Part shown: positions 5,908-37,056 of the stretch, piece after piece
Position numbering within the stretch: the first letter of the stretch is position 1
How the letters are laid out: each line of letters opens with the position of its first letter
From: Emticicia sp. 21SJ11W-3
GTDB taxonomy: Bacteria > Bacteroidota > Bacteroidia > Cytophagales > Spirosomataceae
Direction of reading: 5' to 3'
NCBI RefSeq assembly: GCF_024138715.1
Contig: NZ_CP092074.1
Coordinates: forward strand, 1,612,001-1,676,000
Length of the DNA stretch: 64,000 bases
Program-made: the position numbers and the translations under genes
The notes under the pieces: generated by a model
The model's database searches: none
Told to the model about the DNA's origin: nothing
The model's input: the letters and a program-made list of their open reading frames with translations, nothing else

Positions 5908-7824
5908 TTATTGCTTTTTTATTGTTTGCTGCAACAACCATATGGCTAAATCTTTGGCAGCGTTAAAATTCTGATAAACAAGCGGTATCCGGCGGCCATC
6001 AGTGTATTCGTTGTACAGCCAGGGGTCGCCCACTGCAAAAACGGTTCCTTTACCTACTTTGGCTGTTGCAATGATTACTTCACCTTTATCTGTCAGTACA
6101 GATCTGGCAGGGGTACTCAAAGCCAATGGCGATAATTCTTTAATATAAACCGCCTGAGTGCTTTTAAAAACCGGATTCCCCGCTGGTATGTCTAAACGGC
6201 CTTGTTCCCATTGCGTCCCTTGCACCATGTTGATGTTTTTGGTTAAAAACTGAATGCCAAATTCTTTGGCCAGGAGGTTGAAGTTTTTATGCTCGCAATT
6301 AGATGTATCATTAGCCATCATTACCAAAACACCGCCATTTTTAACCCAGTTACTTATCTGTTTAATATCATCTGCCTGAATAAAAGCAGGCTTTGCTGTT
6401 TCCTTTTTTGTGTCTGGGTCAACTATAATGTAAACACTTACGTCTTTCAGGTTTGCAGCCGTAGGCGCTTGTTTAATTGTGGTTGTTCTGGCTCCTAATT
6501 CGTTAAAGATATTACCCCAGAGCCAGAAGCCAGAGTGCATGCGGTCGTCCCAGGTGTAATGAAAATTCTCCTGATTACCATTCAGGTCTTTTCTGAATTC
6601 ATTATTGAAATGCCCGTCTACAGCCACTACTTTGCCTTTGCCCAAAGTGTTTTCGTTGGCAATTTCCATTTCAACGCTGGCAAAGATAAACGGGCCGACG
6701 CCTTTCAAATCGTTCTTGCGGATAGGTTCGCTCAGATAGTATTCGTACGAACCATCACGATACGGGTTGCCACCCAGGCCACCTACACTTACGGTTTTGT
6801 TCAGACTGATTGTCCCGTCTTTTTCTTTCTCAACAAATTCTTTCAGTATACCGGCGTAGCCTTTTCTGGCGGCTGACAGATACCGGGCATCCAGATACCC
6901 CTGACGAACCCCTTTTGCCAAAGCATACACAAACATACAAGATGCAGATGCTTCAAAGTAATTACCTTTACGATTGCCCTGAGTGGTCATCTGATACCAG
7001 ACACCGGACTGAGCATTTTGATATTTTACCAGGGCAGGCGCCAGGCGTTGCAGGTATTTGATAAGATTCGCTTTTTCAGGGTGATTTTCCGGGAAGTAAT
7101 CCAGAACATCAACCAATGCCATTGCATACCAGCCAATGGCACGGCTCCAGAAATGCGGCGAAAGCCCTGTTTTTTTATCTGCCCATTTCTGCTCACGGCT
7201 TTCGTCGTAGCCATGATACACCAGGCCGGTCTGTTCATCTACTGCATATTTTTCAATCAGGGCAAACTGTCTGGCAATGTCATCAAAATGCTCAGGCTTG
7301 TTGAATAGCCTGCTGTATTCGGCCGCAAAAGGCTCGCACATAAAAAGGCCGTCAAGCCACATCTGGTAGGGGTACCTTTGCTTGTGCCAGTAGCCACCCT
7401 CTTTGGTTTTGGGCTGGTTCTCTATCTGCATCCAAAGTAAATGGGCGGCTTTGATGTATTTCTCTTTATCAGGCTGTGTTTGTTGCGCCAGCATCAACAG
7501 CGCTCTTCCGGTAGGAATATTGTCCAGATTAAAATCATTATAAGCGTAAGTTCTGATGCTGCCGTCTTTCTGCACGTAGCGGTCAATATCTTTTCTGATG
7601 TACTCAAAATATTTTCCGTCTCCTGTTCTGTACCAGACCTTTTCCAATGCCTTTAGTACAAGTCCCTGCTCGTAATCCCATGCGGCCGGTTTATTAGGTT
7701 TTACGGTAATTGAGTCTTTGTGCCAGGTCATGAACGACTCAGCCATTTGAACCGAATAGGGTTTTTGTGCGAAACTGCCAATGCAGCCGAACAGAAAAAT
7801 AACAATCAGTTTTTTAGCAATCAT
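5908..7824 (-). CDS. GH105 unsaturated rhamnogalacturonyl/glucuronyl hydrolase fused to a DUF4350-like domain
   Basis: A signal peptide (residues 1-20, ending FAQ) is followed by an alpha/alpha-barrel hydrolase of the YteR/YesR type to about residue 395. The two acidic positions expected in this family are visible: D101 in NLDNIPTGRALL and D158 in YPYQMWLDGLFM. GH105 enzymes hydrate the 4,5-double bond of unsaturated uronic acids at the non-reducing end of lyase products, releasing them. From about residue 405 a second domain (YIIVDP, GGVLVMMANDTSN, GTVFAVGDPWLYNEY) resembles the DUF4350 / amidotransferase-like fold and probably has no catalytic role in uronate removal. Total length 638 versus about 370-400 for single-domain GH105. 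It sits 26 bp after GH95. Confidence 0.88.
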   Translation of the reverse strand: MIAKKLIVIFLFGCIGSFAQKPYSVQMAESFMTWHKDSITVKPNKPAAWDYEQGLVLKALEKVWYRTGDGKYFEYIRKDIDRYVQKDGSIRTYAYNDFNLDNIPTGRALLMLAQQTQPDKEKYIKAAHLLWMQIENQPKTKEGGYWHKQRYPYQMWLDGLFMCEPFAAEYSRLFNKPEHFDDIARQFALIEKYAVDEQTGLVYHGYDESREQKWADKKTGLSPHFWSRAIGWYAMALVDVLDYFPENHPEKANLIKYLQRLAPALVKYQNAQSGVWYQMTTQGNRKGNYFEASASCMFVYALAKGVRQGYLDARYLSAARKGYAGILKEFVEKEKDGTISLNKTVSVGGLGGNPYRDGSYEYYLSEPIRKNDLKGVGPFIFASVEMEIANENTLGKGKVVAVDGHFNNEFRKDLNGNQENFHYTWDDRMHSGFWLWGNIFNELGARTTTIKQAPTAANLKDVSVYIIVDPDTKKETAKPAFIQADDIKQISNWVKNGGVLVMMANDTSNCEHKNFNLLAKEFGIQFLTKNINMVQGTQWEQGRLDIPAGNPVFKSTQAVYIKELSPLALSTPARSVLTDKGEVIIATAKVGKGTVFAVGDPWLYNEYTDGRRIPLVYQNFNAAKDLAIWLLQQTIKKQ

Positions 7825-7850: not shown

Positions 7851-10241
7851 TTACAACACCACATTCAGTTTTTGTCCTGCTTTCAGGTTGATTTTTTTAG
7901 ATTTGCTACCACTTACCAGAGTGGTTTGCCCGCCTTTTTTAGAATAAACCGTGATAGACTTTACGGTTTTATTTGCCCAGGTCATGGTTATTTCAAAACC
8001 GCCTCTGGCGCATAAACCCTTAACAGAACCATTGCTCCAATCGTCTGGCAGGGCAGGTAGCAAGCGAATCAGGTTTTCATCAGACTGCACCAGCATTTCT
8101 GCAACGGCCGCTGCCCCGCCAAAGTTGCCATCAATCTGGAATGGCGGGTGGGCGTCAAACAGGTTAGGGTAAGTACCGCCACCACGTGCATATTTGGTCT
8201 TTACACCGTCGGGTTCCACATAATGCAATAACTCACGATACATTTTGTAGGCGTGGTTTCCGTCCCATAGCCTTGCCCAAAGGTTTATTCTCCAGCCTTT
8301 TGACCAACCCGTTGTTTCATCGCCTTTTATTTCCAGCGTTTTACGACAGGCTTCAGCCAGAGAAGGTGTTTTTTCAGGTGTGATATGATTACCCGGGAAC
8401 AAGCCAAAAAGATGCGATTGATGGCGGTGTTTAGGGTCTTCGTCTTCCCAGTCATAATACCACTCCTGCAAATTACCTTTTTTGCCTATCTGATACGGGT
8501 ATAGTTTGGCCAGTGCCTGTTCCAGCCTGGTTCTGAACTCAACATCGGTGTTCAATATTTTTGATGCCTTGATGGTTTGCTCAAAGCACTCGCGAATCAT
8601 GGCCAGGTCGGCTGTGGCGCCATAAAGGGTAGCGCCATGATAACCAGTTGATGTAATATATTTGTTTTCGGGCGATGTAGACGGTGAGGTAACCAGATTC
8701 CCGTTTTTATCCGGCACCAGCCATTCCTGACAAAACTGCGCTGCGCCACGCATAATGCCGTAGGCCTCGTTTTTCAGGAAACTGATGTCTTTCGTAAAAA
8801 TGTAGTGTTCCCAAAGGTGGGTACTCAGCCAGGTACCACCCATGGTCCAGTTAGCCCATACGGGGTCGCCATTACCAAAATCACCTACGGGGTTACTCAT
8901 AGCCCAGATATCGGAGTTGTGGGCTACTGTCCAGCCATTCACGCCATAAAAAGTTCTGGCCGTAATTTTTCCGGTTTCTGAGGCGTTTCTGATAAACCCG
9001 AGTAAGGGCTTGTGCATTTCTGAAAGGTTGGTGTTTTCTGCCAGCCAGTAGTTTTCTTCGGCATTGATATTGGTCGTATAGTTACTGCTCCAGGGTGGTC
9101 TCATATAGGGGTTCCAGATACCTTGCAGGTTGGCAGGAACACCATTGGTACGCGAGCTGCTGATAAGCAGGTATCGGCCATATTGAAAATACAGTACTTC
9201 CAGCACTTTATCTTCTTTACCTTCGGCGTAACGTCTGAGCCTTTCGTCAGTTGGTAAAACCGGAGCCTGACTAGCGCCGATGTTCAGGCTTACTCTATTA
9301 AAAAATGTTTGGTAATCTTTAATATGCGCCTGCTTTAGCTGTAAAAAGGGTTTGGCAAATGCTTTGTTCAGATTAGCTGCCGCAATGGCTTTGTTATCAA
9401 GACCCTCGGTTGCAGGGTTTTTGTCGAACCCATTAAAACTGGTGGCTATTGATACAAATATCAAGGCCTCTGTTCCATTCTTAATGCCGATAGTGCTGTC
9501 GGTGGCCAATACACTGCCACCTGTATTTTTGATTTTAGCAAGGGTTGTAAATCTGGTGCCTTTTGATTCATCAAATACAACTGCATTCGGCGAATTGACA
9601 TAGTTAGGCAAGGCCTTTACCGGGGCGTAGCCATTAACTGATAACAGATTACCATTGGCCGTAACTTTGTTTTTAAGCAGGCTGTTAAACTTTACATCAA
9701 AACTCAATGCCCCTGCCTTGCTGCTGGTCAGCTTAATAATCATAATCTGGTCGGGGTGCGACACAAAGTATTCACGGGTGTATTTGACCCCATCAATTTC
9801 GTAAGTAGTTTTTGAAACCGCCTCGCCTATATTCAGTTCGCGATAGTAGTTCTGCGCTTTATCTTCATTGGCAAAGTTGATATACAGCGTGCCCAGCGGC
9901 GCAAATGACTCGGAGTATTTTCCCTGAATTTTGCGATACAACTGGTCGGCTAGTTTATAGTCTTCTTTTTGGAGAGCCTCTCTTATAGCCGGAATATGCT
10001 TGTAAGCCTCCGGATTCATGTTAGGATTTACAGGCTCACCAGACCACAATGTGGCATCGTTCAGATAGATTTTGTCTGATTGAACGCCACCGAAAACAGT
10101 AGCGCCTAATTTGCCATTACCCAGTACCAGGCTTTCTTCAAAGTATTGCGCCGGCTTTTTATACCAGAGCGTTTTATCTGGTTGTGCGTAACCGGCAAGC
10201 GAGATAGTAAAAAGCAGAAGTAATAATTTGGTTTTTTTCAT
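7851..10241 (-). CDS. GH95 alpha-L-fucosidase / alpha-L-galactosidase
   Basis: The 796-residue length, a signal peptide ending YAQ, and an N-terminal beta-sandwich domain ([21 protein letters not shown]) define GH95. Catalytic-region signatures are present: [10 protein letters not shown] near residue 390, [14 protein letters not shown] near residue 607 and [14 protein letters not shown] near residue 703. GH95 enzymes are inverting and cleave alpha-1,2-L-fucose or alpha-L-galactose, both found on plant pectin side chains and xyloglucan and on some algal and bacterial glycans. The gene lies between the lipoprotein (18 bp) and GH105 (26 bp), clearly within the operon. Which of the two sugars is removed cannot be told here. 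Confidence 0.9.
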
Positions 10242-10259: not shown

Positions 10260-11465
10260 TCAAAGTTTTGGTACTTCAGATAAATGTATGCCTAACAGCT
10301 TCTTGCTGATAGCATCCAGGGCGTTCTCGGCCCCTTCAAAATGAAAAGTACGCTGTACATGGGTTAATGTTTCATTGCGTTTAAGCGCAATGGCAGGCGA
10401 CGAGGTCTCTAATTCATAAAATTGCCCCATCTGACTACCCGTATCATTTTTACCGTCATTATAAGCGTTAATGGCATCGCCGTTGTATGGGTTTTTCTGA
10501 ATCTCCCACATCGAGTTCACGTAGTCGGTTTCGCCTTTGTAATCAAACTGCACAATGGTCAGTATTTTGTTTTCGGCATCGTAGCTTCCGGCAACCGGTT
10601 TTAATGCCTGCGGAGGTATACCTATTTTACCACGGGCCTGCGCGTCAGCCTTGAAGAACAGAATGTCTTCTTTTTTTACCAGTCTTCCGGCAGGAATTTT
10701 ACCAAAGTAGCTATCGTTAATCAATTCTGCTTTGCCTGATTGGTAAGGGATAATGATGGTGTTTTGTGGTGAGGCTTTCATCATACCCAGAAGCCAGATA
10801 GAAAGTACCCCTTTCGATTTATCCCAGTCTTCAGCTCCGGTATTGGTCAGGGCATTGGTGGTTTGATACCCCACCCAGGCAATGTCTTTAAGCGCAAAAC
10901 CTAATAATTTCCCGGCATCAGATTGGTTCAGTAAACTGATTTCACGATTCAGCTTTACCCTGAATTGCGTACCTGAGTAGTTTTCTAACGTCATATCCTT
11001 TGTGAAAACTGCTCTGTTGGCTTGTTTCTCAACCAAATCATAAGAAACCGTGTCTATTTCTGCCGGGGTTTGCCAATTTTCAAAGTCAAATGTGCTGCCT
11101 TTCTTAAAGAAAACGGAATACTGCCCGCCTTCAGGGCCAAACCAGAAGCGTTCTTCTCCGCCAAAGGCATTCATGTGCGGTGTGTATTTGCCCGACGCAA
11201 TGGCTTCGTGGTTGATCCAACCATAGCTGAAACCACCGTTTCCTTGGGCAGTGCTGGTCATTACTCTTGCCTGATAATCGCCTACAATGGCAACTTTCAT
11301 GCTGTCTTGCTCCAGTAATACTACTTCTTTGTGTTTCTTTAAAAATTCGTAGTCGAATCCAAATGTGTCTTCCTGTTTCATAGTGGTTTGTGTATGGTTT
11401 CCCTCATGTGCCGTGTTACAAGCCATACAGTAAAAAGCCAGCGTAGAAATAATGGCCTTTTTCAT
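10260..11465 (-). CDS. Lipoprotein of a DUF6786-like, mutarotase-fold-like family
   Basis: The 401-residue protein has a lipoprotein signal with the lipobox cysteine at C16 (FYCMAC). The mature part begins with a run of T, Q, K and E residues, then FGFDYEFLKKHKEVVLL and a beta-rich region with NAFGGEERFWFGPEGGQYS. The ERFW-GPEGG pattern recalls galactose-mutarotase-like sandwich proteins found in polysaccharide loci, and the protein resembles the family I know as DUF6786; that name is given from memory. The gene is tightly packed (5 bp after the esterase), so it is co-expressed with the PUL enzymes. A carbohydrate-binding or epimerase role is only a guess. Confidence 0.55.
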   Translation of the reverse strand: MKKAIISTLAFYCMACNTAHEGNHTQTTMKQEDTFGFDYEFLKKHKEVVLLEQDSMKVAIVGDYQARVMTSTAQGNGGFSYGWINHEAIASGKYTPHMNAFGGEERFWFGPEGGQYSVFFKKGSTFDFENWQTPAEIDTVSYDLVEKQANRAVFTKDMTLENYSGTQFRVKLNREISLLNQSDAGKLLGFALKDIAWVGYQTTNALTNTGAEDWDKSKGVLSIWLLGMMKASPQNTIIIPYQSGKAELINDSYFGKIPAGRLVKKEDILFFKADAQARGKIGIPPQALKPVAGSYDAENKILTIVQFDYKGETDYVNSMWEIQKNPYNGDAINAYNDGKNDTGSQMGQFYELETSSPAIALKRNETLTHVQRTFHFEGAENALDAISKKLLGIHLSEVPKL

Positions 11466-11470: not shown

Positions 11471-12631
11471 TTAGTTTAATAGTTTAATTACGGCTTCGTC
11501 TCCTTTCAGCGCATCAGCAGGTAGTGGATGGCTGGCATCAAACACCTGCAATTGGGCTGGTGAAAGCACAGCATTGATGCTTTCATCTATTTTTCCGTTA
11601 ACTTTTACCTTGTTGATATCCAGTTTCAGATGTCTGGCCAGAAATTCATAAGCGGCCAATCTTTTAGAAATGCCGTAATCATGCTTTTCATCGGGCAGAT
11701 GTACGTTCTCCAGTTTGTCTTCAGCCCCATAAAAAGAATAAATGCGCTTAATGTAGGGGTATTCTAAATTTGGGGTGTTTTTGGTCCAGTCGCCACCGTC
11801 TGATACCAACAGCATAGGTCTTGGCGCAGCCAGTGCAGCTATTTCAACATTGGTTGTTTCATGCGTGGGGCGTTTGTGAATGGGCATGCCGCTTTCGCAG
11901 ATACAGCCACCAAAAAAATACGCAGATACCATCACTACCGGAACAGATACCTTAATGCGTTTATCAATGGCTGCCAGTAAAAAAGTCTGGGTGCCACCGC
12001 CAGACTCACCCGTCATACCTATGCGTTCTTTATCAATGTTTGGCTGGCTCAATAAAAAATTGAGGGCGGCGGTGCTGTTTGCCAATTGCAGTTTTACGGC
12101 CTTTGGTATTTTATGGTCGCACTGTTTCATATCGCCCATGCCTATCATGTCATAAGCAAAAACCACTGCCCCCATACGCGCCAATGTGGCGCAACGCTGC
12201 TGGGTATATTCTTTCAGGCGTGGGTCTTGCCCATGGCCATGCGGACAAAGGACGCCTGCCATTTTTTTGCCTGTCTGCATTGGCCGGTACAGGTTGCCGG
12301 TAACATAGATACCGTTAAGGCTCTGGAAAGATACGTTTTCTACACTGTAGCCGTTAAACTCTTTTTTGCTGTGTATAGTAATATTAGATGCTTTGGGAAC
12401 CTTGAGCAGATTGAACTCTGAACCCTCAAGAATGCCTTGCCTGATAAGCGCAGCGCGTTTTTCCCAGCTTTTTTTGTCGCTGTAGTTTTGGGCAAGGTCT
12501 TGGTGTACTTTTGCTGCCTGTTCTTCAGTATAAAAACGGCCTTGCCTGAGGTCGGGCTTTTCGGGGTTGTACTGGGCTAAAGCCACATTACCTGCCAGAA
12601 TAAAACTTAAAACAAGAAATGACGATTTCAT
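11471..12631 (-). CDS. Secreted alpha/beta-hydrolase, acetylxylan-esterase-like
   Basis: The 386-residue protein carries a signal peptide (cleavage after about residue 19, ALAQ). An alpha/beta-hydrolase core follows, with VLCPHGHGQ, the nucleophile elbow GMTGESGGGTQ, an acidic candidate in LLVSDGGDWT and the histidine in EKHDYG. This is the arrangement of the acetylxylan-esterase / Abhydrolase_7-type proteins of Bacteroidota PULs, which remove acetyl or other ester groups so that glycosidases can act. An unusual CIC pair occurs in FFGGCICESGMP beyond the nucleophile. It lies 10 bp downstream of kdgF and 5 bp upstream of the lipoprotein gene. Confidence 0.8.
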   Translation of the reverse strand: MKSSFLVLSFILAGNVALAQYNPEKPDLRQGRFYTEEQAAKVHQDLAQNYSDKKSWEKRAALIRQGILEGSEFNLLKVPKASNITIHSKKEFNGYSVENVSFQSLNGIYVTGNLYRPMQTGKKMAGVLCPHGHGQDPRLKEYTQQRCATLARMGAVVFAYDMIGMGDMKQCDHKIPKAVKLQLANSTAALNFLLSQPNIDKERIGMTGESGGGTQTFLLAAIDKRIKVSVPVVMVSAYFFGGCICESGMPIHKRPTHETTNVEIAALAAPRPMLLVSDGGDWTKNTPNLEYPYIKRIYSFYGAEDKLENVHLPDEKHDYGISKRLAAYEFLARHLKLDINKVKVNGKIDESINAVLSPAQLQVFDASHPLPADALKGDEAVIKLLN

Positions 12632-12641: not shown

Positions 12642-13001
12642 TTAAGTATGAATAAAATCTTCACGCATTGGGTTAAATACATCAACCAGTATACCGTCTT
12701 CCAGACAAATGGCGCCATGCAAAACCTCTGATGGAACGAAGTAGACATCGCCTTCTTTTAGGATTTTACTTTCGCCATTAATGGTTATTTCAAAAACACC
12801 ACCGGCAATGTAGCTCATTTGCAGGTGTGGGTGCTTGTGCGTTGCGCCAACGCCTCCTTTTTCAAAAGCTACCTTTACGAGCATAAGGTCTTTTGAATAA
12901 GACATGATTTTGCGTCTGATTTTGGCATCAACAATTTCCCAGGGTAGGTCGTTGTCTTCTACCAGCGTTTTTTCAAAGGCTGCATTCACGAGAGAGGTCA
13001 C
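12642..13001 (-). CDS. kdgF: KdgF-type cupin (unsaturated uronate linearisation)
   Basis: The 119-residue single-domain cupin has the metal-ligand segment HKHPHLQMSYI, the second cupin motif GDVYFVPSEVLHG, and the KdgF-typical ending VDVFNPMREDFI. KdgF proteins speed the conversion of 4,5-unsaturated uronates (from lyase plus GH88/GH105 action) to the linear ketone that KduI uses. The only upstream start is a GTG at 13001; a second GTG four codons later is possible, and no ATG exists near the N-terminus. It is the first gene of its operon, and a LacI-type site lies 100 bp upstream. It is physically separated from kduI/kduD by about 29 kb. Confidence 0.85.
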   Translation of the reverse strand: MTSLVNAAFEKTLVEDNDLPWEIVDAKIRRKIMSYSKDLMLVKVAFEKGGVGATHKHPHLQMSYIAGGVFEITINGESKILKEGDVYFVPSEVLHGAICLEDGILVDVFNPMREDFIHT

Positions 13002-13035: not shown

Positions 13036-13059
13036 TACTTTTATGCGAAGGTAAAAGTA
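13036..13059. promoter_or_regulatory. Inverted repeat in the kdgF leader
   Basis: TACTTTTA, an 8-nt spacer and TAAAAGTA form a perfect 8-bp inverted repeat 35 bp upstream of the kdgF start. It may be a second operator or a leader hairpin. No copy was found upstream of kduD, so it is not part of the shared element. Confidence 0.4.
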
Positions 13060-13100: not shown

Positions 13101-13133
13101 TTTATGCAAACGTTATCGGGAACGTTGCCAAAA
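13101..13133. promoter_or_regulatory. Predicted LacI-family operator upstream of kdgF
   Basis: This 33-bp segment matches 43351-43383 at 31 of 33 positions, in the same orientation relative to its target gene. Its core is GCAAACGTT, a 6-nt spacer and AACGTTGCC, an inverted pair in which each half contains AACGTT with the central CG usual for LacI-family sites. It starts 100 bp upstream of the kdgF GTG. The regulator is probably the LacI-type protein at 43500-44507, since the twin site lies in that gene's own divergent promoter region. Confidence 0.75.
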
Positions 13134-22977: not shown

Positions 22978-23074
22978 GTCTCCGGTTTTCAAACTGCATT
23001 ACCTGTCAGCCTTTCCCTGATTAAACCTTTGTAACTACCTTACTTAAAACGCAAACACGTTATTGCCCCCACAG

Positions 23075-24283
23075 ATGAAAACTATTTTAGAAGTTCTTTT
23101 TTGGGTTTGTACCGGCCTGGTTTTTTACACGTACTTAGGCTACGGATTGTTAGCATGGTTGCTTGTTAAAATCAGAAAAATGATGGGTATTTCATTTAAA
23201 ACCTTTAATAACCCGTCATTCCAACCAGAAATCACTTTGGTGGTTCCGGCCTATAACGAGATGACCTGCATTGCTGACAAGGTTAAAAATTCGTTCGGTC
23301 TTGAGTATCCGGCAGATAAGCTCGAAGTTCTTTTTGTAACCGAAGGCTCAAACGATGGTACCACTGAGTACCTTGAGGGGCTAAAACCACTCTACCCCAG
23401 GCTGCGCATTATAGGTGGCAAAGAACGAAAGGGAAAAATTGAGGCCATGAATATGGCGATTAAAACCATAACCACCCCGATTGTTATTTTTACCGACGCC
23501 AATACAACCCTGAACAACGATGTACTTAAAAACATTGTGAGACATTTTGAGGACGAAAACGTTGGCGCAGTAGCAGGTGAGAAGCGGATTCAGACCGATA
23601 ACAGTGAGGCCGCCGCAGGGGCAGGCGAGGGCTTATACTGGAAGTATGAATCTTTTCTGAAGAAACTGGATACCCGGCTCTACTCAGTTGTAGGAGCAGC
23701 CGGAGAACTTTTTGCCGTAAGAACGCACCTTTACGGAAACGTTGAAAAAGATACGCTGCTTGATGACTTCATGGTTTCGCTGCGGGTAGCCGCTGCCGGA
23801 TACAGAGTAATTTATGAACCTGATGCCTACGCCATAGAACGCCCCTCATTTTCAATCGATGACGAAATGAAACGGAAAGTACGAATTGCAACAGGTGGGT
23901 TTCAGTCAATAGAACGACTTGCATTTTTATGGAACGTTTTCAGATACGGATGGCTTTCGTTTCAGTATGTTTCTCACAGGGCAATGCGGTGGGCAGTGGC
24001 CCCGTTTTGTCTGCCACTTATTTTTTTGTGTAACCTGCTAATAGTACTGCTGGAAGACCCGGATAATCTCTTTAGTTTTTACAAAATAATAATGGCCGCG
24101 CAGGTTTTATTTTATTTATTAGCTATATTAGGGTATTGGTTCGAAAACCGGAAGATGAGAATCAAACTTTTGTTCGTTCCGTTCTATTTTTCATTTATGA
24201 ACTACTGCGCTATATTGGGCTTTAACCGTTATAGAAAGGGGGTAAGTTCAGGAATATGGGAAAAAGCCAGGCGCGCAACGTAA
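23075..24283 (+). CDS. Membrane-bound GT2 glycosyltransferase
   Basis: The 402-residue protein has an N-terminal membrane helix (about 7-27), a GT-A domain beginning EITLVVPAYNE with a FTDANTTLN metal/nucleotide motif, and three C-terminal membrane helices. The segment KVRIATGGFQS after LLDDFMVSL corresponds to the region where processive GT2 enzymes carry Q-x-x-RW, here not conserved. It probably adds a sugar to the lipid-linked repeat unit. The start is the ATG at 23075; an in-frame TTG 12 bases earlier is less likely. It is the first biosynthetic gene after the signalling trio. Confidence 0.85.
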   Translation: MKTILEVLFWVCTGLVFYTYLGYGLLAWLLVKIRKMMGISFKTFNNPSFQPEITLVVPAYNEMTCIADKVKNSFGLEYPADKLEVLFVTEGSNDGTTEYLEGLKPLYPRLRIIGGKERKGKIEAMNMAIKTITTPIVIFTDANTTLNNDVLKNIVRHFEDENVGAVAGEKRIQTDNSEAAAGAGEGLYWKYESFLKKLDTRLYSVVGAAGELFAVRTHLYGNVEKDTLLDDFMVSLRVAAAGYRVIYEPDAYAIERPSFSIDDEMKRKVRIATGGFQSIERLAFLWNVFRYGWLSFQYVSHRAMRWAVAPFCLPLIFLCNLLIVLLEDPDNLFSFYKIIMAAQVLFYLLAILGYWFENRKMRIKLLFVPFYFSFMNYCAILGFNRYRKGVSSGIWEKARRAT

Positions 24284-24453
24284 ATGTTCCGATATTTTTG
24301 TGTTATTTTTACAACGTGTTACGGTACACGTCTATTTTTTGATTGTTTTTATTAAAAAGGCACAGTTTTTGACATACTGACTGATAATGGGTTTTGTAAG
24401 CCGGTGTAGCTCAGTTTATGTGTATTTATCATAACAATAACCAGTCTTTTTAA

Positions 24454-25218
24454 ATGGCATTGCGTAAAAATTCTCTAGTTGTATTCATCTTTTTAGTTTC
24501 CTACTTTTTTACCATTTCTGAGACAAGAGCTCAGGTAACTGCCGCAGATGATGCCCTGACAAGAGCATTGGCTACCGACGCCCTTTTGCCCCTTTTGATT
24601 GATGCAGCACTAAAAAACTCGCCGCAGATAAAAAAACTGAATAGTAACCTTAAGGCGGCTGAATCAACGCTGAAATATAATAAAAACCTCATTTACAGCG
24701 GAATTACTGTAGGGGGGAATTACCATTATGGAACCAATTATTCAGCCGTTACCGACCAGACCTCGTACGAAAACGTGCTTAACAGGCTCACAATGGTTCA
24801 GTCGGGGTTTTATAGTGTAGGTGGTGGTATTAGTTTCCCGCTTTCAGGATTACTTAACAGAAAACACCTAATAAATTCCGGAAAGGCTCAGATAGAATCA
24901 ATCGAGAACGATAAAGACGTTTCAGCATTGTCAATCAGACAAGATGTAATAGCCCTGTATCAGGAATTAAAACTTTCTCATAAACTGCTGGCTATCAGCA
25001 GTAGTAACAAACAGGCTTTTCAGGTTAATTACAATCTGGCAGAGAAAGAGTTTTTGCAGGGTCAGCTTAGTGTATCTGAAGTATCCCGAATGCTTGATTA
25101 CATCAACAAGGCAAAAATGGAATACGAAACTACTTTAAATAAATTTCAGACCAATCTTTTTCAGTTAGAATCATTTACGGGTGTTAGTCTGTCCTCATTA
25201 TTACAACAAGTGAAATGA
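24454..25218 (+). CDS. Short TolC-like outer-membrane efflux protein
   Basis: The 254-residue protein has a signal peptide (residues 1-27, ending TRAQ) and the TolC-family start LIDAALKNSPQIKKLNSNL. Beta-strand and long helical segments follow (residues 140-245, LKLSHKLLAISSSNKQAF, YETTLNKFQTNLFQ). Usual TolC proteins have about 420-480 residues made of two such repeats; this one has a single repeat. It would therefore need a hexamer of half-units to form a barrel, or work differently. Its end overlaps the start of the Wzc-like gene by 4 bp, so the pair is translationally coupled. It is the only outer-membrane export candidate in the exopolysaccharide locus. Confidence 0.75.
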   Translation: MALRKNSLVVFIFLVSYFFTISETRAQVTAADDALTRALATDALLPLLIDAALKNSPQIKKLNSNLKAAESTLKYNKNLIYSGITVGGNYHYGTNYSAVTDQTSYENVLNRLTMVQSGFYSVGGGISFPLSGLLNRKHLINSGKAQIESIENDKDVSALSIRQDVIALYQELKLSHKLLAISSSNKQAFQVNYNLAEKEFLQGQLSVSEVSRMLDYINKAKMEYETTLNKFQTNLFQLESFTGVSLSSLLQQVK

Positions 25219-27389
25219 CACTTCTTCATTTTTTAAATATCATTTATAAAAACCTGAAGGCACTCATTTTAGTGCCTCTGGTTCTGGCCGCAACCATTTT
25301 TTATTTTACCAGAAACGAGAAAAAAGTTTATACCTCCGAAACGACCATTTATACAGGTATTGCATCCGGGTATAGTCTGATTGGCAGTATAAAAGCCGAC
25401 TTTTTTACTGCCAATAATGCATTTGATAACCTGCTTTCTCTTATTCAGGCCAGAGAAACCAAAGAAGATGTGGCAGTAAGTTTGCTGGCCGAACACTTAT
25501 TTATGAAAAACCATGACCCCTCAAAAATGACCTGGGGGTCTTATACCGAGTTGAAGAAACTCGTGCCGCAGTCGACCATTGATAGTGTCGTAAAATCTAC
25601 GCTGCCTGAAACCCGCGCCGCAATTGCGAGCTACATGAAAAAGAATGACACCAATGTTATTTACCGGCTCATTAACTCAAAAGTGCCTAATTACTCAATT
25701 GATGCACTAAATAATATAAAATCGAACCGTGTTAGCAGCAGCGACTTCATCAAGATTTCTTATGAAGCCAATGACCCTTTTATTTGTAAACACACACTTG
25801 AGCTGTTGGAAGACATCTTCATGGATAAGTATCGTTTACTGAAAGGCGGGCAAACCGTTTCGGTTGTAGGCTATTTTGAAGAGCAAAGCAAAAAGTCTTT
25901 TGCCCGGCTCGATTCTGTTGAGCAGGTTTTTCTTGAGTTTAACAAGAAAAACGATATTATTAACTATTATGAGCAAAGTAAGGCAGTTGCTAATGAAAAA
26001 GAAGATTTGTATGCCCTGAACCATAATCTGGAAATGGACGAGCAGGCCTCAATCAGGTCTTTAGATAAAGTAAATGAAAATATCAAGAACAGAGTTTACC
26101 AGTCGCTCTACGGTAGTGAGATCATTAACGAGCGTGAAAAACTCTCGGATGTCTATAATAAAATTGCCTTTAGTGAGGCAATTAATAGGGGCAAAGGAAA
26201 CAAGAGAGAACTAGACAGCCTTAAATCTTATGCTAACGTTATTGAAAATAACCTGAGGGTATCATTAGATAAGCTGAATGCCAACACAAATACGCCAGAG
26301 GGAATACCCACTAAAAATGTGCTTGACGAATGGTTTAAAAATACCATTGCAGTAGAACAGGGTAAAGCCAAACTGGCAGTGATGGATAAACGCAAAAGAG
26401 AATTTACTGAAGAATACCGGAAATTTGCTCCGCTGGGCGCTTTCCTTAAAAAGATTGAAAGGCAGATATCTGTTTATGAGCAAGAGTATTTGCAGATGCT
26501 TCATGACCTTAACCTTGCTAAACTTTCGCAACAGAACTCTGAAATCACCTCAAAACTAAACGTGGTTGACCCGCCTTATCTGCCCCTTAAACCCAATGCT
26601 TCTAAAAGGATTATTCTGGTGGTTGTGGGTTTTCTGGGTGGTTTTATAATGGTGCTGTCAGTAGTTTTAGGCAATGCCTTTATTAATAAAACCATTCTTG
26701 AGCCTAGCAGAGCTAAAAAAATGATAGGTAAGCCATTTATGGGCTTATACCCGCTGTTGACCGAGAATCCCAAATTTCTTGAGTTGGCCAATGTTCGTTT
26801 GATGCAGCAAGTGCTATCAAGGGTTGACCCCCTCGACAAGCCGGTCTATATTGGTTTTGTGAGTGTGCAGAAAGGAGAGGGCAAAAGCACCATTATTGAT
26901 ATGCTGGAGCAGGAACTGACAAACCTGAGTTTCAGCGTTGAAAAACAATTGCTGCTGCCTACTATTGAATATAAACAACTTGGTATTTCTATGCCTATGA
27001 GCCTGGAAGCCCACCAATGGGATACCGAAGAAAACATGATTGCCAACTGGGAAGCTAAAAATAACCTGATTGTAAAGAAAGACGTAGATTTTGTGCTTAT
27101 TGAGTTTCCACCGCTTGAAAAAATGATAATCAAGCCTGGGTTGTTCCCTCATTTACATCAGACAATTCTGCTTTGCAGGGCTAATCGTATCTGGGATCAG
27201 CGAGACGACGAAATCCTTGACTTGTTTGCAAAAACAACTGGTACAACCCCTATGGTTTTGCTGAATGGTGTAGAGACAGATTTTGCCGAAGAGACATTGG
27301 GCGAAGTACCCAAGAAAAGAAACGCGTTGCGCTCTTTTATAAAAAGCCTGGTTAAACTTGAATTTGGAAATAAATCGAGGATTCGTTAA
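25215..27389 (+). CDS. Wzc-like polysaccharide co-polymerase with degenerate kinase domain
   Basis: This 724-residue inner-membrane protein has a helix near residues 12-32, a long periplasmic coiled-coil region and a second helix near residues 465-485 (preceded by the PCP-typical PPYLPLKPNASKR). A P-loop domain follows, with Walker A in VSVQKGEGKSTI. The position of Walker A' reads LLLPTIEYK, lacking the D-x-D-x-R of BY-kinases, and Walker B reads VLIEFPPL with E for D. The C-terminus (FGNKSRIR) has no tyrosine cluster. It probably regulates chain length or export without autophosphorylating on tyrosines. Translation is coupled to the TolC-like protein. Confidence 0.82.
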   Translation: MTLLHFLNIIYKNLKALILVPLVLAATIFYFTRNEKKVYTSETTIYTGIASGYSLIGSIKADFFTANNAFDNLLSLIQARETKEDVAVSLLAEHLFMKNHDPSKMTWGSYTELKKLVPQSTIDSVVKSTLPETRAAIASYMKKNDTNVIYRLINSKVPNYSIDALNNIKSNRVSSSDFIKISYEANDPFICKHTLELLEDIFMDKYRLLKGGQTVSVVGYFEEQSKKSFARLDSVEQVFLEFNKKNDIINYYEQSKAVANEKEDLYALNHNLEMDEQASIRSLDKVNENIKNRVYQSLYGSEIINEREKLSDVYNKIAFSEAINRGKGNKRELDSLKSYANVIENNLRVSLDKLNANTNTPEGIPTKNVLDEWFKNTIAVEQGKAKLAVMDKRKREFTEEYRKFAPLGAFLKKIERQISVYEQEYLQMLHDLNLAKLSQQNSEITSKLNVVDPPYLPLKPNASKRIILVVVGFLGGFIMVLSVVLGNAFINKTILEPSRAKKMIGKPFMGLYPLLTENPKFLELANVRLMQQVLSRVDPLDKPVYIGFVSVQKGEGKSTIIDMLEQELTNLSFSVEKQLLLPTIEYKQLGISMPMSLEAHQWDTEENMIANWEAKNNLIVKKDVDFVLIEFPPLEKMIIKPGLFPHLHQTILLCRANRIWDQRDDEILDLFAKTTGTTPMVLLNGVETDFAEETLGEVPKKRNALRSFIKSLVKLEFGNKSRIR

Positions 27390-27445
27390 CCTGATTCCTT
27401 GAAAACCCTTCCGGTTCTGATTGATTTAATTGCTTCTGCTACTGC

Positions 27446-28894
27446 ATGGAAAATGATGTTTTATATACATCTAACAGAAATAAACTTAAGAGTATATGGC
27501 TAATACCATTTACTCTTATTGCTGTTATTTTAGGATGGGCCATTGCTAATATAGGAATAACCATCGGAATGATGGTTATTGTTTTGCCGTTTGTAATTGC
27601 CTTCGTAATTGTTCTTTTCTACAAGCCCCGGTTTGGCATCTATTTCTTTTTAGTCTATTGCTTTTTAATGCCTACATTGGGCAAACACATAGTCGGTATT
27701 CAGTTTGGTTTGGGAATGGATGCCATTCTTGTGCTGATTGTCTTAAGCCTTTTATTTAATACCACAAACAGATATAGAATCAGGCATCTCAATAACGATT
27801 TGTTTTGGATTGCTTTTGTTTGGTTTGTAATTACGGTTCTGCAAATCGGAAACCCTGAAAGACCCAGCTTTGAAGGATGGTTTTATGAAATGAGGTCAAC
27901 CACCTTATATTGGATACTGACAGTATCAACTGGCTATTTATTGCTCAATAAAAAGAAAGATGTAAATATCTTTCTCAATATCATCATTATTTTGTCGCTG
28001 CTAGGTGCACTTTATGGGGTAAAGCAAAATATACTCGGGCCCGATGCTGCAGAAATGAGATGGCTGGAGGCAGGAGCAAAAGTTACACACATTTTGTTTG
28101 GCAAGCTACGGATATTCTCTTACTATCCGGAGGCTGCCCAGTTTGGGGCATCGCAGGCGCAGTTATCTATTATGTGTTTTATACTGGCCGTTGGGCCATA
28201 TAGTAAGGCAAAGAAACTCGGGTATTTGATAGCCGCCGTTATTATTTTTTATGGAATGCTGCTTTCTGGAACGCGCGGAGCCATGGCAGCACTGGTTGGT
28301 GGCGGTTTTACTTTTCTGGTTTTAAGCAAGCAGATAAAGATGCTGATTTTAGGGTCAGTAATTGGTCTTGGTTTTCTAGGCATGTTGAAGTACACCACCA
28401 TTGGCAACGGCAATGCCCAGATTGTTAGATTCAGAACATCACTTGACCCTGAAGACCCATCATTGCAGGCAAGGTTACGGAATCAGAAAAAACTAAGTGA
28501 ATTTATAAAAAACAAGCCTTTTGGTGCCGGTGTGGGTACAATGGGTAACTGGGGTACTAAATACAACGCAGATAAGTTTATTTCAACCATACCGCCAGAC
28601 AGCATGTATGTAAAAATATGGGGCATGTACGGCATAGTCGGGTTTATTATCTGGTTTGGAAGCATGATGTACATAACCGGTAAATGCTCTGGCATAATCT
28701 GGAAAACCCGTGACCCTGTTCTCAAAAATCAGCTTACATCTATATGTGCCGGGGCAACGGGTATTCTGCTGTGTAGTTATGGAAACGAAGTAATGAATGC
28801 CATGCCGTCGTCGGCAGTTATCTATTTCAGTTGGGTTATAATATGGCTAAGCCCAAGATGGGACACACCATTGCCTGTCGGTAACAGTAAATAA
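27446..28894 (+). CDS. O-antigen ligase / Wzy-type polymerase family membrane protein
   Basis: The 482-residue protein has about ten to twelve predicted membrane helices and the Wzy_C-type features: GTRGAMAALVGG in the middle and a large loop (FGAGVGTMGNWGTKYNADK, then PDSMYVKIWGMYGIVGFI). Proteins of this family join repeat units on a lipid carrier (polymerase) or transfer chains to a lipid or protein (ligase). In a locus with a flippase and a Wzc-like protein, polymerase is the more likely role. It is flanked by the Wzc-like gene and a GT2 gene on the same strand. Confidence 0.85.
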   Translation: MENDVLYTSNRNKLKSIWLIPFTLIAVILGWAIANIGITIGMMVIVLPFVIAFVIVLFYKPRFGIYFFLVYCFLMPTLGKHIVGIQFGLGMDAILVLIVLSLLFNTTNRYRIRHLNNDLFWIAFVWFVITVLQIGNPERPSFEGWFYEMRSTTLYWILTVSTGYLLLNKKKDVNIFLNIIIILSLLGALYGVKQNILGPDAAEMRWLEAGAKVTHILFGKLRIFSYYPEAAQFGASQAQLSIMCFILAVGPYSKAKKLGYLIAAVIIFYGMLLSGTRGAMAALVGGGFTFLVLSKQIKMLILGSVIGLGFLGMLKYTTIGNGNAQIVRFRTSLDPEDPSLQARLRNQKKLSEFIKNKPFGAGVGTMGNWGTKYNADKFISTIPPDSMYVKIWGMYGIVGFIIWFGSMMYITGKCSGIIWKTRDPVLKNQLTSICAGATGILLCSYGNEVMNAMPSSAVIYFSWVIIWLSPRWDTPLPVGNSK

Positions 28895-28917
28895 AAAACA
28901 ACCTAAAACTATTTGCG

Positions 28918-30090
28918 ATGCACTACGTGGGTCTTATTCTGCAATATGCTATTCTGATTTACCTTACCATACAGGTGGTGTATCTGCTGTTTTTTTCGGT
29001 TGCGGGTAAAGTGGGTAAAAAAACAGCCTTTGCCAAAGCTGCAAAAAACAGAAAGATACGCATTTTTATACCGGGGTATAAAGAAGACTCGGTTATTATT
29101 GCTACCGCAAAAGACGCCATCAGGCAGGATTACCCCGCTGAATTGTTTGAAGTAGTTATTATTGCTGATTCTTTCACCGAAAAAACGCTTATTGCTCTAA
29201 GGACTCTTCCAATTAAAATAGTTGAAGTGAGCTTCGAGAAAAGCACTAAGGGTAAAGCGCTGCAAAAAGCCATTGATGCCACCATTACTGACCCAGTTGA
29301 TATAGTGGTTATTCTTGATGCCGACAACCACATGGCCCCCGGTTTTTTGAATGCCGTAAACAACGCTTTTGAGGCTGGCTATGAGGCCGTGCAAGGCCAT
29401 CGCACAGCCAAGAATTTTCAGACCCCCTTTGCATTGCTGGACGCCTGCACAGAAGAAATTAATAACCATATTTTCAGAAGAGGCCATGTAGCAGTTGGTT
29501 TGCCCTCAGCTCTGATAGGCAGCGGTATGGCATTTAACTGGTCATTATTTGTAAACCTGCTGGCTGATATCGGCGATACCTCAGGTGAAGACAAAGAACT
29601 GGAGTTCAGGTTGATGAAGCTGCGCAAGAAAATTGCTTTTCTGGACGGCCATTATGTGTATGACGAAAAAGTGGCAAAAACGGAGGTGTTCAGCAAACAG
29701 AGAAGCCGCTGGCTGGCCATGCAAATAGAATTTCTTGAAAAGTATTTTGTTGAAGGCTGGGTAATGCTGTTTAAAGGCAATGTTTCTTTTTTCAATAAGG
29801 TGTTTCAGACCTACCTGCTGCCCAGAGTAATGTTGGTGGCAGTTCTGGTTTTGTGGGTAGCATTTACCTTTTTCCTCGTGCCGTCTTTGTTATATTACAG
29901 CCTGGGTTTATTTGTTGCCCTTGCTATTGCCTTGCTGATGGGGATTCCGGCAAAATGGTATAACAGACAACTGTTGGCTGCCTTTTTGCAGATACCGGTT
30001 GCTATTTTTTCTATTCTTATAGCAGCTTTAAATATAGGTAAAGCACGCAAAAAGTTTATACACACACCACACGGAGAAACAGAACATTAA
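28918..30090 (+). CDS. Processive-type GT2 glycosyltransferase with membrane helices
   Basis: The 390-residue protein begins with a membrane helix, followed by a GT-A domain (RIFIPGYKED, VILDADNHMAPGFL) and the acceptor/processivity motif QRSRWLAMQ. Two or three C-terminal membrane helices complete the chain. The D-x-D and Q-x-x-RW motifs place it with cellulose-synthase-like GT2 enzymes, but a non-processive role in repeat-unit assembly is equally possible. It is 23 bp after the polymerase gene and is followed by a very small ORF and a further glycosyltransferase. Confidence 0.87.
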   Translation: MHYVGLILQYAILIYLTIQVVYLLFFSVAGKVGKKTAFAKAAKNRKIRIFIPGYKEDSVIIATAKDAIRQDYPAELFEVVIIADSFTEKTLIALRTLPIKIVEVSFEKSTKGKALQKAIDATITDPVDIVVILDADNHMAPGFLNAVNNAFEAGYEAVQGHRTAKNFQTPFALLDACTEEINNHIFRRGHVAVGLPSALIGSGMAFNWSLFVNLLADIGDTSGEDKELEFRLMKLRKKIAFLDGHYVYDEKVAKTEVFSKQRSRWLAMQIEFLEKYFVEGWVMLFKGNVSFFNKVFQTYLLPRVMLVAVLVLWVAFTFFLVPSLLYYSLGLFVALAIALLMGIPAKWYNRQLLAAFLQIPVAIFSILIAALNIGKARKKFIHTPHGETEH

Positions 30091-30094
30091 AAAG

Positions 30095-30196
30095 ATGCCT
30101 TGGGAAATTATTGCCATACCCGCTATTGTATGTTTAATCTGGGGTTTTAAACAGGGGCTTAAAGCTAAAGAAAAAAAACATGTTAAAAGAGATTGA
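30095..30196 (+). CDS. Possible 33-residue membrane microprotein
   Basis: A 33-codon frame starts 4 bp after the stop of the GT2 gene, behind a purine-rich AAAAAG. It encodes MPWEIIAIPAIVCLIWGFKQ followed by a lysine-rich tail. One hydrophobic helix plus a basic tail is the usual layout of small membrane proteins. It overlaps the start of the next glycosyltransferase (30180) by 17 bases in another frame, so it could also be a leader peptide that couples translation. No homologue can be checked here. Confidence 0.42.
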   Translation: MPWEIIAIPAIVCLIWGFKQGLKAKEKKHVKRD

Positions 30197-31388
30197 CGCA
30201 TACATAGTTATTGCCCAGCAGGAATGGGAGCTGAACCTGGGCAGTAATGCCCGTAACCTGGCTGTTGAATTCAGCAAGAACAAACCGGTTATGTATGTTA
30301 ATCCTGCTATTGATATAAAATCTGTTTATAAACAGGCCAACACTGAGGCCGGTAAAAAACGTTTGAAACTGTCTTTAGGCTTTGGAGAAAATACCGTTAA
30401 AGCAGCAGACAACCTTTGGGTACATACCCCGGCTACTGTATCTTATTCTATAAACTGGCTGCGGAATATTTCATTATACAATTTTCTGAACAGAAGAAAC
30501 GGAAAAGGCTTTTTTGACAGCCTAAAAAAAGCCATTAAACAATTGGGCTGGAAAGCAGAAAGATGCGTGGTTTTAAACGACAGCCAGATGTTTACAGGCT
30601 TGTATACCAAAGCATATCTAAAGCCTTTGCTTAGCTTTTATTATATAAGAGATAATCTGGTGGAGCACCCTTATTTTAAGTTTCATGGAACAAGAATAGA
30701 GCCAGATACCATAAAAGTTGCCGATGCTGTTTTTGCAAATTCGGCCTATCTGGCGCAGTACGCACGGCAGTTTCATCAGTTAAGTCTGGATATTGGCCAG
30801 GGTTGTGAAACCGATATGTATGACCCCGACCAAAGCTATCAGGAGCCAGCTGACCTGAAAGATATACCAAAGCCCAGAATTGGTTATACCGGGTTTCTTA
30901 CCGGCAAAAGGCTCGACATAAAGTTATTGGAAGAGCTGGCCACCACAAGAAAAGAATGGCAATTTGTTTTGATTGGGCCGGAAGAAGCCATGTTTCAGGC
31001 CAGCCAGTTGCACGGCATGAGCAATGTGCATTTTCTGGGTTCTAAAAAACCAGCTCAATTGCCGGCCTATATCCGGTTTATGGATGTTTGCATGAATCCC
31101 CAACTCGTTAATGAACTGACCATAGGTAACTACCCGCGCAAAATTGATGAATATCTGGCTATGGGTAAGCCAACCGTGGCCACCGATACCATTGCCATGC
31201 AGATGTTTTTGCCACATGTTGAATTGGCCGTGGGTACACTGGCATACATAAAGGCTATTGAAAAGGCGCTTCAGCTACAAACAGAAGCAGAAAAAAAAGC
31301 AGCTATTGCCTGTGGTAAAAGCCATACCTGGGAGGCCTGCGTTGAGAAAATATTTGAGGTTCAGAATCAATTACTGGCTGGCAAATAG
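30180..31388 (+). CDS. Glycosyltransferase, TuaH/GT4-like
   Basis: The 402-residue soluble protein has a two-domain GT-B layout. The N-terminal half has AYIVIAQQEWELNLGSNARN and FYYIRDNLVEHPYFK. The C-terminal half carries RIGYTGFLTGKRLDIKLL, FVLIGPEE, VHFLGSKKPAQLPAYI and NYPRKIDEYLAMGKPTVATD, the nucleotide-sugar binding region. The pattern is that of TuaH-like transferases of Bacteroidota exopolysaccharide loci. Donor sugar is unknown. The ATG at 30180 overlaps the small upstream ORF. Confidence 0.82.
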   Translation: MLKEIDAYIVIAQQEWELNLGSNARNLAVEFSKNKPVMYVNPAIDIKSVYKQANTEAGKKRLKLSLGFGENTVKAADNLWVHTPATVSYSINWLRNISLYNFLNRRNGKGFFDSLKKAIKQLGWKAERCVVLNDSQMFTGLYTKAYLKPLLSFYYIRDNLVEHPYFKFHGTRIEPDTIKVADAVFANSAYLAQYARQFHQLSLDIGQGCETDMYDPDQSYQEPADLKDIPKPRIGYTGFLTGKRLDIKLLEELATTRKEWQFVLIGPEEAMFQASQLHGMSNVHFLGSKKPAQLPAYIRFMDVCMNPQLVNELTIGNYPRKIDEYLAMGKPTVATDTIAMQMFLPHVELAVGTLAYIKAIEKALQLQTEAEKKAAIACGKSHTWEACVEKIFEVQNQLLAGK

Positions 31389-31432
31389 TACCTACCCTCT
31401 TAAAAAACATTTTACCAAGCACTAATTAACCT

Positions 31433-32800
31433 ATGATTCATACCCTTAAAAAAGGAATAGCTAAACTGCAAAACAGACATTTCTTATCCTTGTTTGCCAA
31501 CGGGAGCATGGCTGTTTTATCAATGGTTACTATCGGTATTCTGTTTCGATACTTACCTGCTACCGAAATCGGTTACTGGTTTTTCTTTCAGACTGTTTTT
31601 GTTTTGCTCGATACTTTCAGAACCGGTTTTCTTCAGGTGGGCTTAATCAAGTTTTTTTCAGGTACAGAAAAAGAACGGGGTGATGCCGTTCTGGGCTCGG
31701 TATGGTTTTTGGGTCTGGCAATTACAGCCATTATGATTGTGGCCAACATACTGTTTTATGTTGGTGCGCATTTGTTAAACTTTACCGGCAATGAGGGTAT
31801 CATGAATACCATCCGCTGGTTCGGAATCACCTTTTTATGCACGCTTCCTTCTGCCATCTCGTCGTGGATACTGCAAGCCAGCCAAAGATTTGACAAGCTA
31901 CTGATACTACGTATACTCAATCAGGGCTTTTTTATTGTGATGATTCTGCTCACTATCATCTTTGGTAAACTGCACAGTGATTTACTGTTTATGATAAACG
32001 CCGGAAGCGCCTTTGTGGTAAGCAGCTATTGTATTATTAAAGGCTGGACACACATACGGACGTTCCCGAACCGAACCAGGGAAATCATACTTGATTTGTT
32101 CAATTTCGGTAAATATAGCGTTGGTACATCCATCAGTACCAACTTGCTGCGTAGTTCGGATACGTTCATCATTATGTTTCTGTTGGGTACGGCGGGGCCT
32201 GCTGCCATTGCCATGTATGCTATTCCGATGCGCCTGATGGAAATCATTGAAATTCCGCTGCGTAGTTTTCTGGCTACCGGTATGCCATCTATGTCGGCTG
32301 CTTTTAACAGAGGCAATAAAAAAGAAGTAACCGAAATTATGCAGAAGTATGCGGGCACCATCTCAATCGGTTTAATACCGGTATCTATTCTGATAATTTT
32401 ATTGGCAGATTTTGCAGTTGAGTTGTTAGGCGGTAGTAAGTATGTGGGCACAGATGCAACTTCGGCCTATCGGATTCTGATGAGTTTTGCCATGGTGCTA
32501 CCCATTGACCGATTCCTAGGTATCACGCTAGACATCATACATAAACCTAAAATAAATTTTTATAAAGTACTTATCATGCTTGCTACCAATGTGGTGTTCG
32601 ATTTTATCGCGCTTACGGTTTTTAAAACCATCAATGGTGTGGCATTAGCTACTTTCTTCACGCTTATATCCGGTACATTCTTTGGTTATTATTGGTTAAG
32701 AAAATACCTCGACTTTACCTTGCTGAGTTTCTATACGGTAGGGTTTTCGCAGATAAGCGCTTTCGCCAAACAGTATTTTAGCAAGCATAAAAAGGTCTGA
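31433..32800 (+). CDS. Wzx-type polysaccharide flippase
   Basis: The 455-residue protein has about twelve to fourteen predicted membrane helices and lies in the MATE/MOP superfamily. Typical segments are FRYLPATEIGYWFFFQTVF near the N-terminus and YAIPMRLMEIIEIPLRSFLA in the middle. Such proteins move lipid-linked repeat units across the inner membrane before Wzy polymerises them. With the polymerase, co-polymerase and priming transferase it makes a nearly complete Wzx/Wzy pathway. Confidence 0.87.
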   Translation: MIHTLKKGIAKLQNRHFLSLFANGSMAVLSMVTIGILFRYLPATEIGYWFFFQTVFVLLDTFRTGFLQVGLIKFFSGTEKERGDAVLGSVWFLGLAITAIMIVANILFYVGAHLLNFTGNEGIMNTIRWFGITFLCTLPSAISSWILQASQRFDKLLILRILNQGFFIVMILLTIIFGKLHSDLLFMINAGSAFVVSSYCIIKGWTHIRTFPNRTREIILDLFNFGKYSVGTSISTNLLRSSDTFIIMFLLGTAGPAAIAMYAIPMRLMEIIEIPLRSFLATGMPSMSAAFNRGNKKEVTEIMQKYAGTISIGLIPVSILIILLADFAVELLGGSKYVGTDATSAYRILMSFAMVLPIDRFLGITLDIIHKPKINFYKVLIMLATNVVFDFIALTVFKTINGVALATFFTLISGTFFGYYWLRKYLDFTLLSFYTVGFSQISAFAKQYFSKHKKV

Positions 32801-37046: not shown

Positions 37047-37056
37047 GGCCGTGTAT

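Follow-up and report, generated by a model that had tools for sequence, protein, structure and literature searches.

A LacI-family protein as the predicted regulator of two uronate loci in Emticicia, acting from double operators at a fixed distance from putative promoters

The closest described systems are those of KdgR, UxaR, UxuR and UxmR, regulators predicted in gut Bacteroides for the catabolism of glucuronate, galacturonate, mannuronate and KDG (PMC3878776, PMC4052901). The candidate regulon analysed here stems from a stretch of 64,000 nucleotides of Emticicia sp. 21SJ11W-3 (NZ_CP092074.1, positions 1,612,001 to 1,676,000), called the window hereafter, and it has the LacI family, the phylum Bacteroidota and these pathways in common with the Bacteroides systems. 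Judged from the available descriptions of the latter, it is set apart by its occurrence in Cytophagales, Chitinophagaceae and Mucilaginibacter, by the addition of GH28, SusC, ECF sigma factor and fructose-1,6-bisphosphatase (FBPase) genes, and by a double site in phase with the predicted promoter.

Three other systems described in the literature resemble it in part. The cre sites upstream of the -35 element at ackA, pta and ilvB accompany activation by CcpA, another LacI-family protein, in a helix-face-dependent manner; in that account they are single 14-bp boxes and activation represents a minority of cases (PMC3463425), whereas most sites of the present regulon share one phase. The LacI-type sites of AraQ and MalR1 in Bifidobacterium similarly lie upstream of the promoter and have been read as activator sites, at no particular promoter distance according to the portion of the source available (PMC6882875), whereas the distance is fixed here. 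Finally, the overlapping LacI-family sites of the GntR gntKU type, reported for 110 operons, also have two operators per element, ~13 bp apart, an arrangement deemed hard to explain and difficult to reconcile with structures (PMC4052901). In our case the dyads are 12 bp apart, the arrangement is part of the regulator's consensus itself, and similar ladders are found before genes of paralogs. A literature search, conducted mostly without subscription papers, yielded, for these orders, no pectin regulon with a LacI-type activator.

The two 33-bp sites of the window, at positions 13101-13133 (site A) and 43351-43383 (site B), are identical at 31 of 33 positions and differ in columns 15 and 27. 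They constitute the top direct 33-mer pair of the window in a search with 11-base seeds, the runner-up reaching 26/33, and the top inverted match (28/33) is a self-overlapping palindrome at 51205-51208. A BLAST search of the complete 5.18-Mb genome with the 81 bp around site A returned the two sites only, with E values of 2.4e-36 and 1.1e-7. Likewise, the pattern TGCAAACGTTNNCGGGAACGTTNCCA with up to three mismatches has two matches in the complete genome and none in the reversed-pattern control. A looser consensus, again with up to three mismatches, gave three further places in this genome, one of them adjoining a LacI paralog gene, and two matches for the control. The two sites have the same orientation. 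Site A ends 100 bp upstream of the GTG of the kdgF open reading frame (13001), and site B ends ~120 bp upstream of the likely ATG of kduD (~43231) and is 116 bp away from the divergent lacI gene. Both contain two AACGTT units, 12 bp apart. A preliminary description of the window had reported the 31/33 agreement, the two upstream distances, the common orientation and the paired AACGTT units, and had proposed the whole-genome scan; our recount agrees with it on all these points.

The core of site A, GCAAACGTTATCGGGAACGTTGCC at 13106-13129 when read on the plus strand, would act on the minus-strand kdgF gene, and we infer from the polarity of sites across the family that its GCAAA arm is the gene-proximal one. 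Site B, with the core GCAAACGTTGTCGGGAACGTTACC at 43356-43379 on the plus strand, lies between kduD and the divergent lacI gene and is the putative control site of kduD, also on the minus strand. The product of kduD (42476-43255) matches TIGR01832 with an E value of 5.3e-98 and 327.4 bits, just under the curated cut-off of 338.85. Behind it on the same strand come kduI (41599-42429; NF002091 equivalog, 1.3e-129, above its cut-off) and, 52 bp further, a gene for a GH88-like hydrolase (40374-41546; Pfam GH88, 1.6e-9).

The first gene behind site A codes for a kdgF-like cupin (12642-13001, minus strand; Cupin_2, 2.5e-12). Its name comes from the preliminary description and from context, as no library profile gives it. 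It is followed on the same strand by genes for an esterase or alpha/beta-hydrolase (11471-12631; AXE1, 2.2e-7), a DUF6786 protein (10260-11465; Pfam, 1.9e-160), a GH95 protein (7851-10241; Pfam, 2.3e-179) and a GH88 protein (5908-7824; Pfam, 5.8e-108), and the five genes form one tight run with gaps of 5-26 bp. uxaC comes after a 251-bp gap that contains a TAGTTTTG of its own. The predicted regulon of the window consists of kduD, kduI and possibly the GH88-like gene, plus the run from kdgF to GH88; with these two sites, the Emticicia regulon appears to be small. A special separation of KdgF from KduI and KduD, as had been proposed, is a weak notion, since kdgF leads this tight run and since the second site precedes GH43 or GH44-family genes instead elsewhere in Emticicia. 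The genome pattern scan bore out that susC and uxaC are not preceded by copies of the site. The same had been said of GH88; no copy stands directly before that gene, but it sits behind the kdgF site in the same run. The region between the two uronate loci (23063-39207) harbours an exopolysaccharide-type cluster coding for glycosyltransferases, O-antigen ligase-like and flippase-like proteins and a sugar transferase.

The gene divergent from kduD (43500-44507, plus strand, TTG start) codes for a protein of 335 residues with a LacI helix-turn-helix (HTH) domain (PF00356, 1.3e-12) and a periplasmic-binding-like sensor domain (Peripla_BP_1, PF00532, 6.8e-33), and thus belongs to the LacI/GalR family. 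Its best matches among solved chains are CcpA and then PurR, both over nearly the full length, and its closest named relatives are Emticicia proteins (85% and 72%). We defined orthologs as best matches of at least 380 bits (at least 55% identity), which are present in 35 of 60 family genomes, including this one. With up to four mismatches allowed, the site lies upstream of the lacI ortholog in 28 of 30 fetched loci, this one included. Among 80 named loci, 64 have an above-threshold site before lacI, a few of them weak, including those of Hymenobacter, Chitinophaga, Flavisolibacter and Mucilaginibacter; the other 16 have no site there.

We tallied the co-occurrence of site (at most one mismatch) and ortholog by hand in the 60 family genomes. 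Both are found in 31 genomes, the ortholog only in 4, the site only in 3 and neither in 22 (Fisher 2.8e-9, related genomes not being independent). One of the four ortholog-only genomes (G024) has a site with two mismatches, and the other three (G032, G056 and G013) have kept the gene-proximal half-site alone, as has Lacihabitans (L071). The site-only genomes are G004 (81% complete), G014 and G044 (63% complete). Since lacI orthologs have retained the site as a neighbour and the two tend to occur in the same genomes, the divergent LacI-type protein is the likely regulator of both sites, and the comparison with related genomes supports the earlier proposal of a single regulon under its control.

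At the family level, the site is present with at most one mismatch in 118 of 222 genomes, all reversed-pattern controls giving 0; the sites adjoin orthologs of the window lacI gene and are found mostly before pectin and uronate genes. In Emticicia, GCAAWCGTTNNCGGNAACGWTNNC has two perfect matches in 9 of 11 genomes and one in the other 2. Each of the nine two-site genomes has one site at lacI/kduD, and the second one precedes kdgF in four, GH43 in three (G006, G007 and G009) and a GH44-family gene in two (G003 and G010). We rejected GH95 as a second target elsewhere in the genus, as it ends at the site and the GH43 or GH44-family gene leads away from it. In G004 the contig stops too early for a second target to be seen. 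When two mismatches were allowed, the scan of the genus gave extra matches, many adjoining LacI paralogs, with 0-2 reversed-control matches per genome.

To describe the targets, we collected 97 sites from 35 genomes, hand-picked among the matches listed (79 of the 80 stretches fetched contain these sites), and named the first genes after the Pfam assignments of representatives. They code for GntR-PBP regulators (16), GH28 (14), SusC (13), UxaB (10), ECF sigma factors (8), KduD (6), GH88 (4) and GH43 (3). Pectinesterase, FBPase, KdgF, FecR, GH44 and a LacI paralog occur twice each, KduI, GntP, an esterase, a pectic acid lyase and UxaA once each, and six others include two acyl-CoA dehydrogenases. 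A second set, of 93 sites with at most one mismatch at any place in the 64 named loci, comprises KduD (21), GH28 (20), SusC (17), UxaB (8), FBPase (3), others (9) and 15 sites without an assigned target. The predicted regulon is thus mainly one of pectin and galacturonate use. Comparative genomics lends good support to the regulon and to LacI as its regulator, and binding is predicted. The LacI protein would be the Emticicia version of a regulator of pectin and uronate use that occurs in Spirosomataceae and, paired with a related site, also in Hymenobacter, Chitinophagaceae and Mucilaginibacter. In a sample of the class, perfect matches were found in only 6 of 295 genomes (control, 1), and the element is therefore not class-wide; the LacI genes of eight distant members of the phylum have no such site in the fetched stretch. 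The two sites before LacI paralogs, which lack the phased promoter columns described below, may be those of another regulator.

The motif over the 64 scoring sites is TTTAYGCAAWCGTTNYCGGNAACGWTDYCAWTT, and the site is a 26-bp pseudo-palindrome with the halves YGCAAWCGTTNYC and GRNAACGWTTGCR. Its outer arm, YGCAAWC-G, equals the PurR half-site, and the whole may be read as a pair of overlapping PurR-like operators, in which the middle CpG belongs to both and the dyads are separated by 12 bp. There are three CpGs, 6 bp apart; the overall dyad is at the middle one, with C in 63/64 and G in 63/64 sites. The site thus has the even palindrome with a central CG of canonical LacI-family operators. Its information spans 26 bp, outside the range of LacI-family motifs, which are overwhelmingly even palindromes of 16, 18, 20 or 22 nt in the published survey (PMC4052901).

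CpG pairs at distances of 6, 12 and 18 bp are enriched relative to dinucleotide shuffles before lacI orthologs (z of 20.4, 12.1 and 6.6; 54 of the 80 named upstream regions, the other 26, mostly near relatives of retained ones, having been dropped by hand). They are similarly enriched before 40 other LacI paralogs taken from the matches of the family-wide ortholog search (z of 21.2, 15.7 and 9.3), 25 of which have three CpGs at 6-bp steps upstream. A single classical operator yields spacings of 6 and 12 bp, never of 18. The CpG ladder is found at only one of the other four LacI genes of this genome. A single wide dimer with separated headpieces is not favoured, as the region linking the HTH and sensor domains aligns to CcpA without gaps. 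One group of LacI paralogs (L286, L288-L292, L294 and L297; ~46-50% identity) has ladders of 4-5 CpGs, e.g. ACGCAACCGTTCCCGGAACCGTTCCCG.

The site is polar. Of the 97 sites, 95 have a gene leading away from the GCAAW arm, and 55 have one on the opposite side. Reading from the core towards the gene, conserved columns correspond to an A-tract at +2 to +8, a TTG at +22 and TAAnYTTR at +45 (T+22 in 83 sites, T+23 in 78, G+24 in 57, T+45 in 66, A+46 in 79, A+47 in 75 and T+50 in 86), and the columns between these phased positions mostly have <0.4 bit, with a maximum of 0.56. The 24 core columns were fixed by the search pattern, and those of the A-tract and promoter were free. TT at +22 is found in 73 of 97 sites, against a background of 0.136, and across most target classes. 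Among 52 non-redundant sites of 99, T+22 is present in 42 (z 19.8 against random shifts of 2-4 bp), T+50 in 42 (z 8.0) and A+46 in 35 (z 8.9), and G+24 is weak (27/52, z 1.3).

We assigned the named loci to orders by record names. Outside Cytophagales, TAnnTTTG with at most one mismatch is found at +45/46 in 15 of 18 non-redundant sites and at any other offset in at most two, and TTG at +22 in one. In the 30 non-redundant Cytophagales sites, TTG is present at +22 in 14, TAnnTTTG (at most one mismatch) at +45/46 in 4 and TAnnnTTG (at most one mismatch) in 14; the last also matches at +17 in 9, because the TTG at +22 falls there. On the lacI side, 76 non-redundant sites show no peak (highest count, 5), and the paralog operators as a set show none at +45. 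In the paralog group with ladders of 4-5 CpGs, a TTTG lies near +31 and is followed near +55 by TAATCT or TAAACT, a full turn beyond the phase of the regulon; we give this no weight, since the members of the group are orthologous to each other.

Promoters of the sigma-ABfr type are described as having the elements TAnnTTTG and TTTG (PMC7366714), and the phased elements fit such a promoter. If the TTG is taken as the -33 element, transcription would start near +56 and the dyads would lie near -62, -68 and -74. The gene-proximal TTTG of the site itself had been considered as overlapping the -33 element, an idea that we gave up once the phased TTG had emerged at +22. For kduD, the predicted -33 TTG is at 43331-43333 (minus strand, +22 to +24 from the core) and the predicted -7 element, CATCTTAG, at 43302-43309 (minus strand, +46) is weak, with two mismatches to TAnnTTTG. 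For kdgF, the predicted -7 element is TACTTTTA at 13052-13059 (minus strand, +46, one mismatch), and the promoter region in the window has no TTG at +22. All four Emticicia genomes with the second site before kdgF have GTACTTTTA at this -7 position. The loose match at -7 in Cytophagales, the weak G at +24 and the imperfect elements of kduD and kdgF count against the activation model set out below, as do the genomes with only the ortholog or only the site, the 16 named loci that lack a site before lacI, and targets unrelated to pectin.

We consider it about two-thirds probable (0.68) that the sites are bound by the LacI protein encoded beside kduD, and that it acts mainly as an activator from a promoter-phased double operator. 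The fixed position before the putative promoter suggests that LacI turns these genes on rather than off. The protein would bind both 26-bp sites, the gene-proximal dyad of which we place ~62 bp before the predicted start, and contact RNA polymerase; its partner may be the alpha C-terminal domain, seated on the conserved A-tract that separates the site from the promoter. Transcription would then start from a sigma-ABfr-type promoter at the fixed phase (TTG at +22, TAnnTTTG-like element at +45/46); our guess for the signal is a sugar acid of the pathway, KDG or DKI. We infer binding, activation, polymerase contact and effector from computed features, namely the sites, their polarity, their fixed phase and their co-occurrence with the ortholog. 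The phase persists once similar sequences are removed and is seen again in other orders; it points to the position of an activator rather than that of an occluding repressor, and activation is favoured because an upstream, helix-face-dependent site is where CcpA activates.

It is unlikely that LacI represses both operons in the ordinary way, binding without ligand and leaving when a uronate intermediate is present. Such a mode would be in keeping with the family, as LacI-type factors are described as typically repressing and only sometimes activating (PMC6882875), and the known repression by CcpA far exceeds activation in the account cited (PMC3463425). The site 116 bp before lacI also fits autoregulation. 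However, repressor operators of the canonical kind overlap the promoter or start, and here, on the predicted promoter, the core ends 22 bp before the -33 TTG and 45 bp before the -7 element. It lies upstream at a fixed helical phase to these predicted elements, like a class I-type activator site. In addition, occlusion requires no fixed phase, and yet the spacing is fixed across many unrelated genes, is seen again in other orders and has no counterpart on the lacI side. The ordinary LacI operator and implied repressor of the preliminary description give way to a double operator that stands upstream of the predicted promoter at a set distance and on one side only; both the mode of the regulator and the form of the operator probably differ from that picture.

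GalR near -60 of gal P1 represses via the same part of the polymerase, and a fixed phase is therefore no proof of activation. Repression from upstream, by polymerase contact or by blocking the A-tract as an UP element, with the phase serving repression, would be compatible with the position near -60 and with the A-tract; we regard it as improbable, more so than ordinary repression. Beyond Cytophagales, almost no site has the TTG at +22 (1/18), whereas the -7 element stays at +45/46 (15/18), as expected for an activator-dependent promoter and not for a strong promoter held down. That another protein binds the sites, for instance the GntR-PBP regulator whose gene follows 16 of the 97 sites, and that LacI is a passenger, is very improbable given the PurR-like half-sites YGCAAWC with a CpG centre, the CpG-ladder sites upstream of 25 of 40 LacI paralogs and the co-occurrence of site and ortholog in family genomes.

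With activation by LacI as the preferred reading, one may tentatively go further and envisage a Bacteroidota class of LacI activators defined by a 26-bp double operator whose CpGs form a ladder with 6-bp steps, by an A-tract and, in fixed phase, by a sigma-ABfr promoter, a generalization that we doubt somewhat more than we trust. If it holds, either two dimers bind 12 bp apart or one dimer switches registers, a mode that LacI and PurR structures do not explain. The group would then supply many natural test cases for double-operator binding. The analysis brings the puzzle of overlapping LacI-family sites within reach of tests. It also proposes how a large group of bacteria from soil and water may control the use of pectin, naming the regulator, its motif and the layout of the promoter, and predicts genes that belong together, including FBPase, ECF sigma factor and SusC genes. 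It further cautions that a LacI-type site need not imply repression.

Several sites stand before genes of other functions. Those before ECF sigma factor genes (L217, L220, L232, L244, L249, L264, L272 and L276) and before FecR genes (L274 and L277) suggest that LacI may steer a sigma/anti-sigma pair. Sites before FBPase genes (L229, L248, L050, L057 and L067) tie pectin use to gluconeogenesis. Two sites ~316 bp before an acyl-CoA dehydrogenase gene (L234 and L241) are a misfit with pectin use. Finally, in other Emticicia (L134, L139, L143 and L144), homologs of the GH88-like gene behind kduI are divergent from the gene of another LacI paralog, and GCAAACGTAACCGCAAACGTTTGC is found near these gene pairs.
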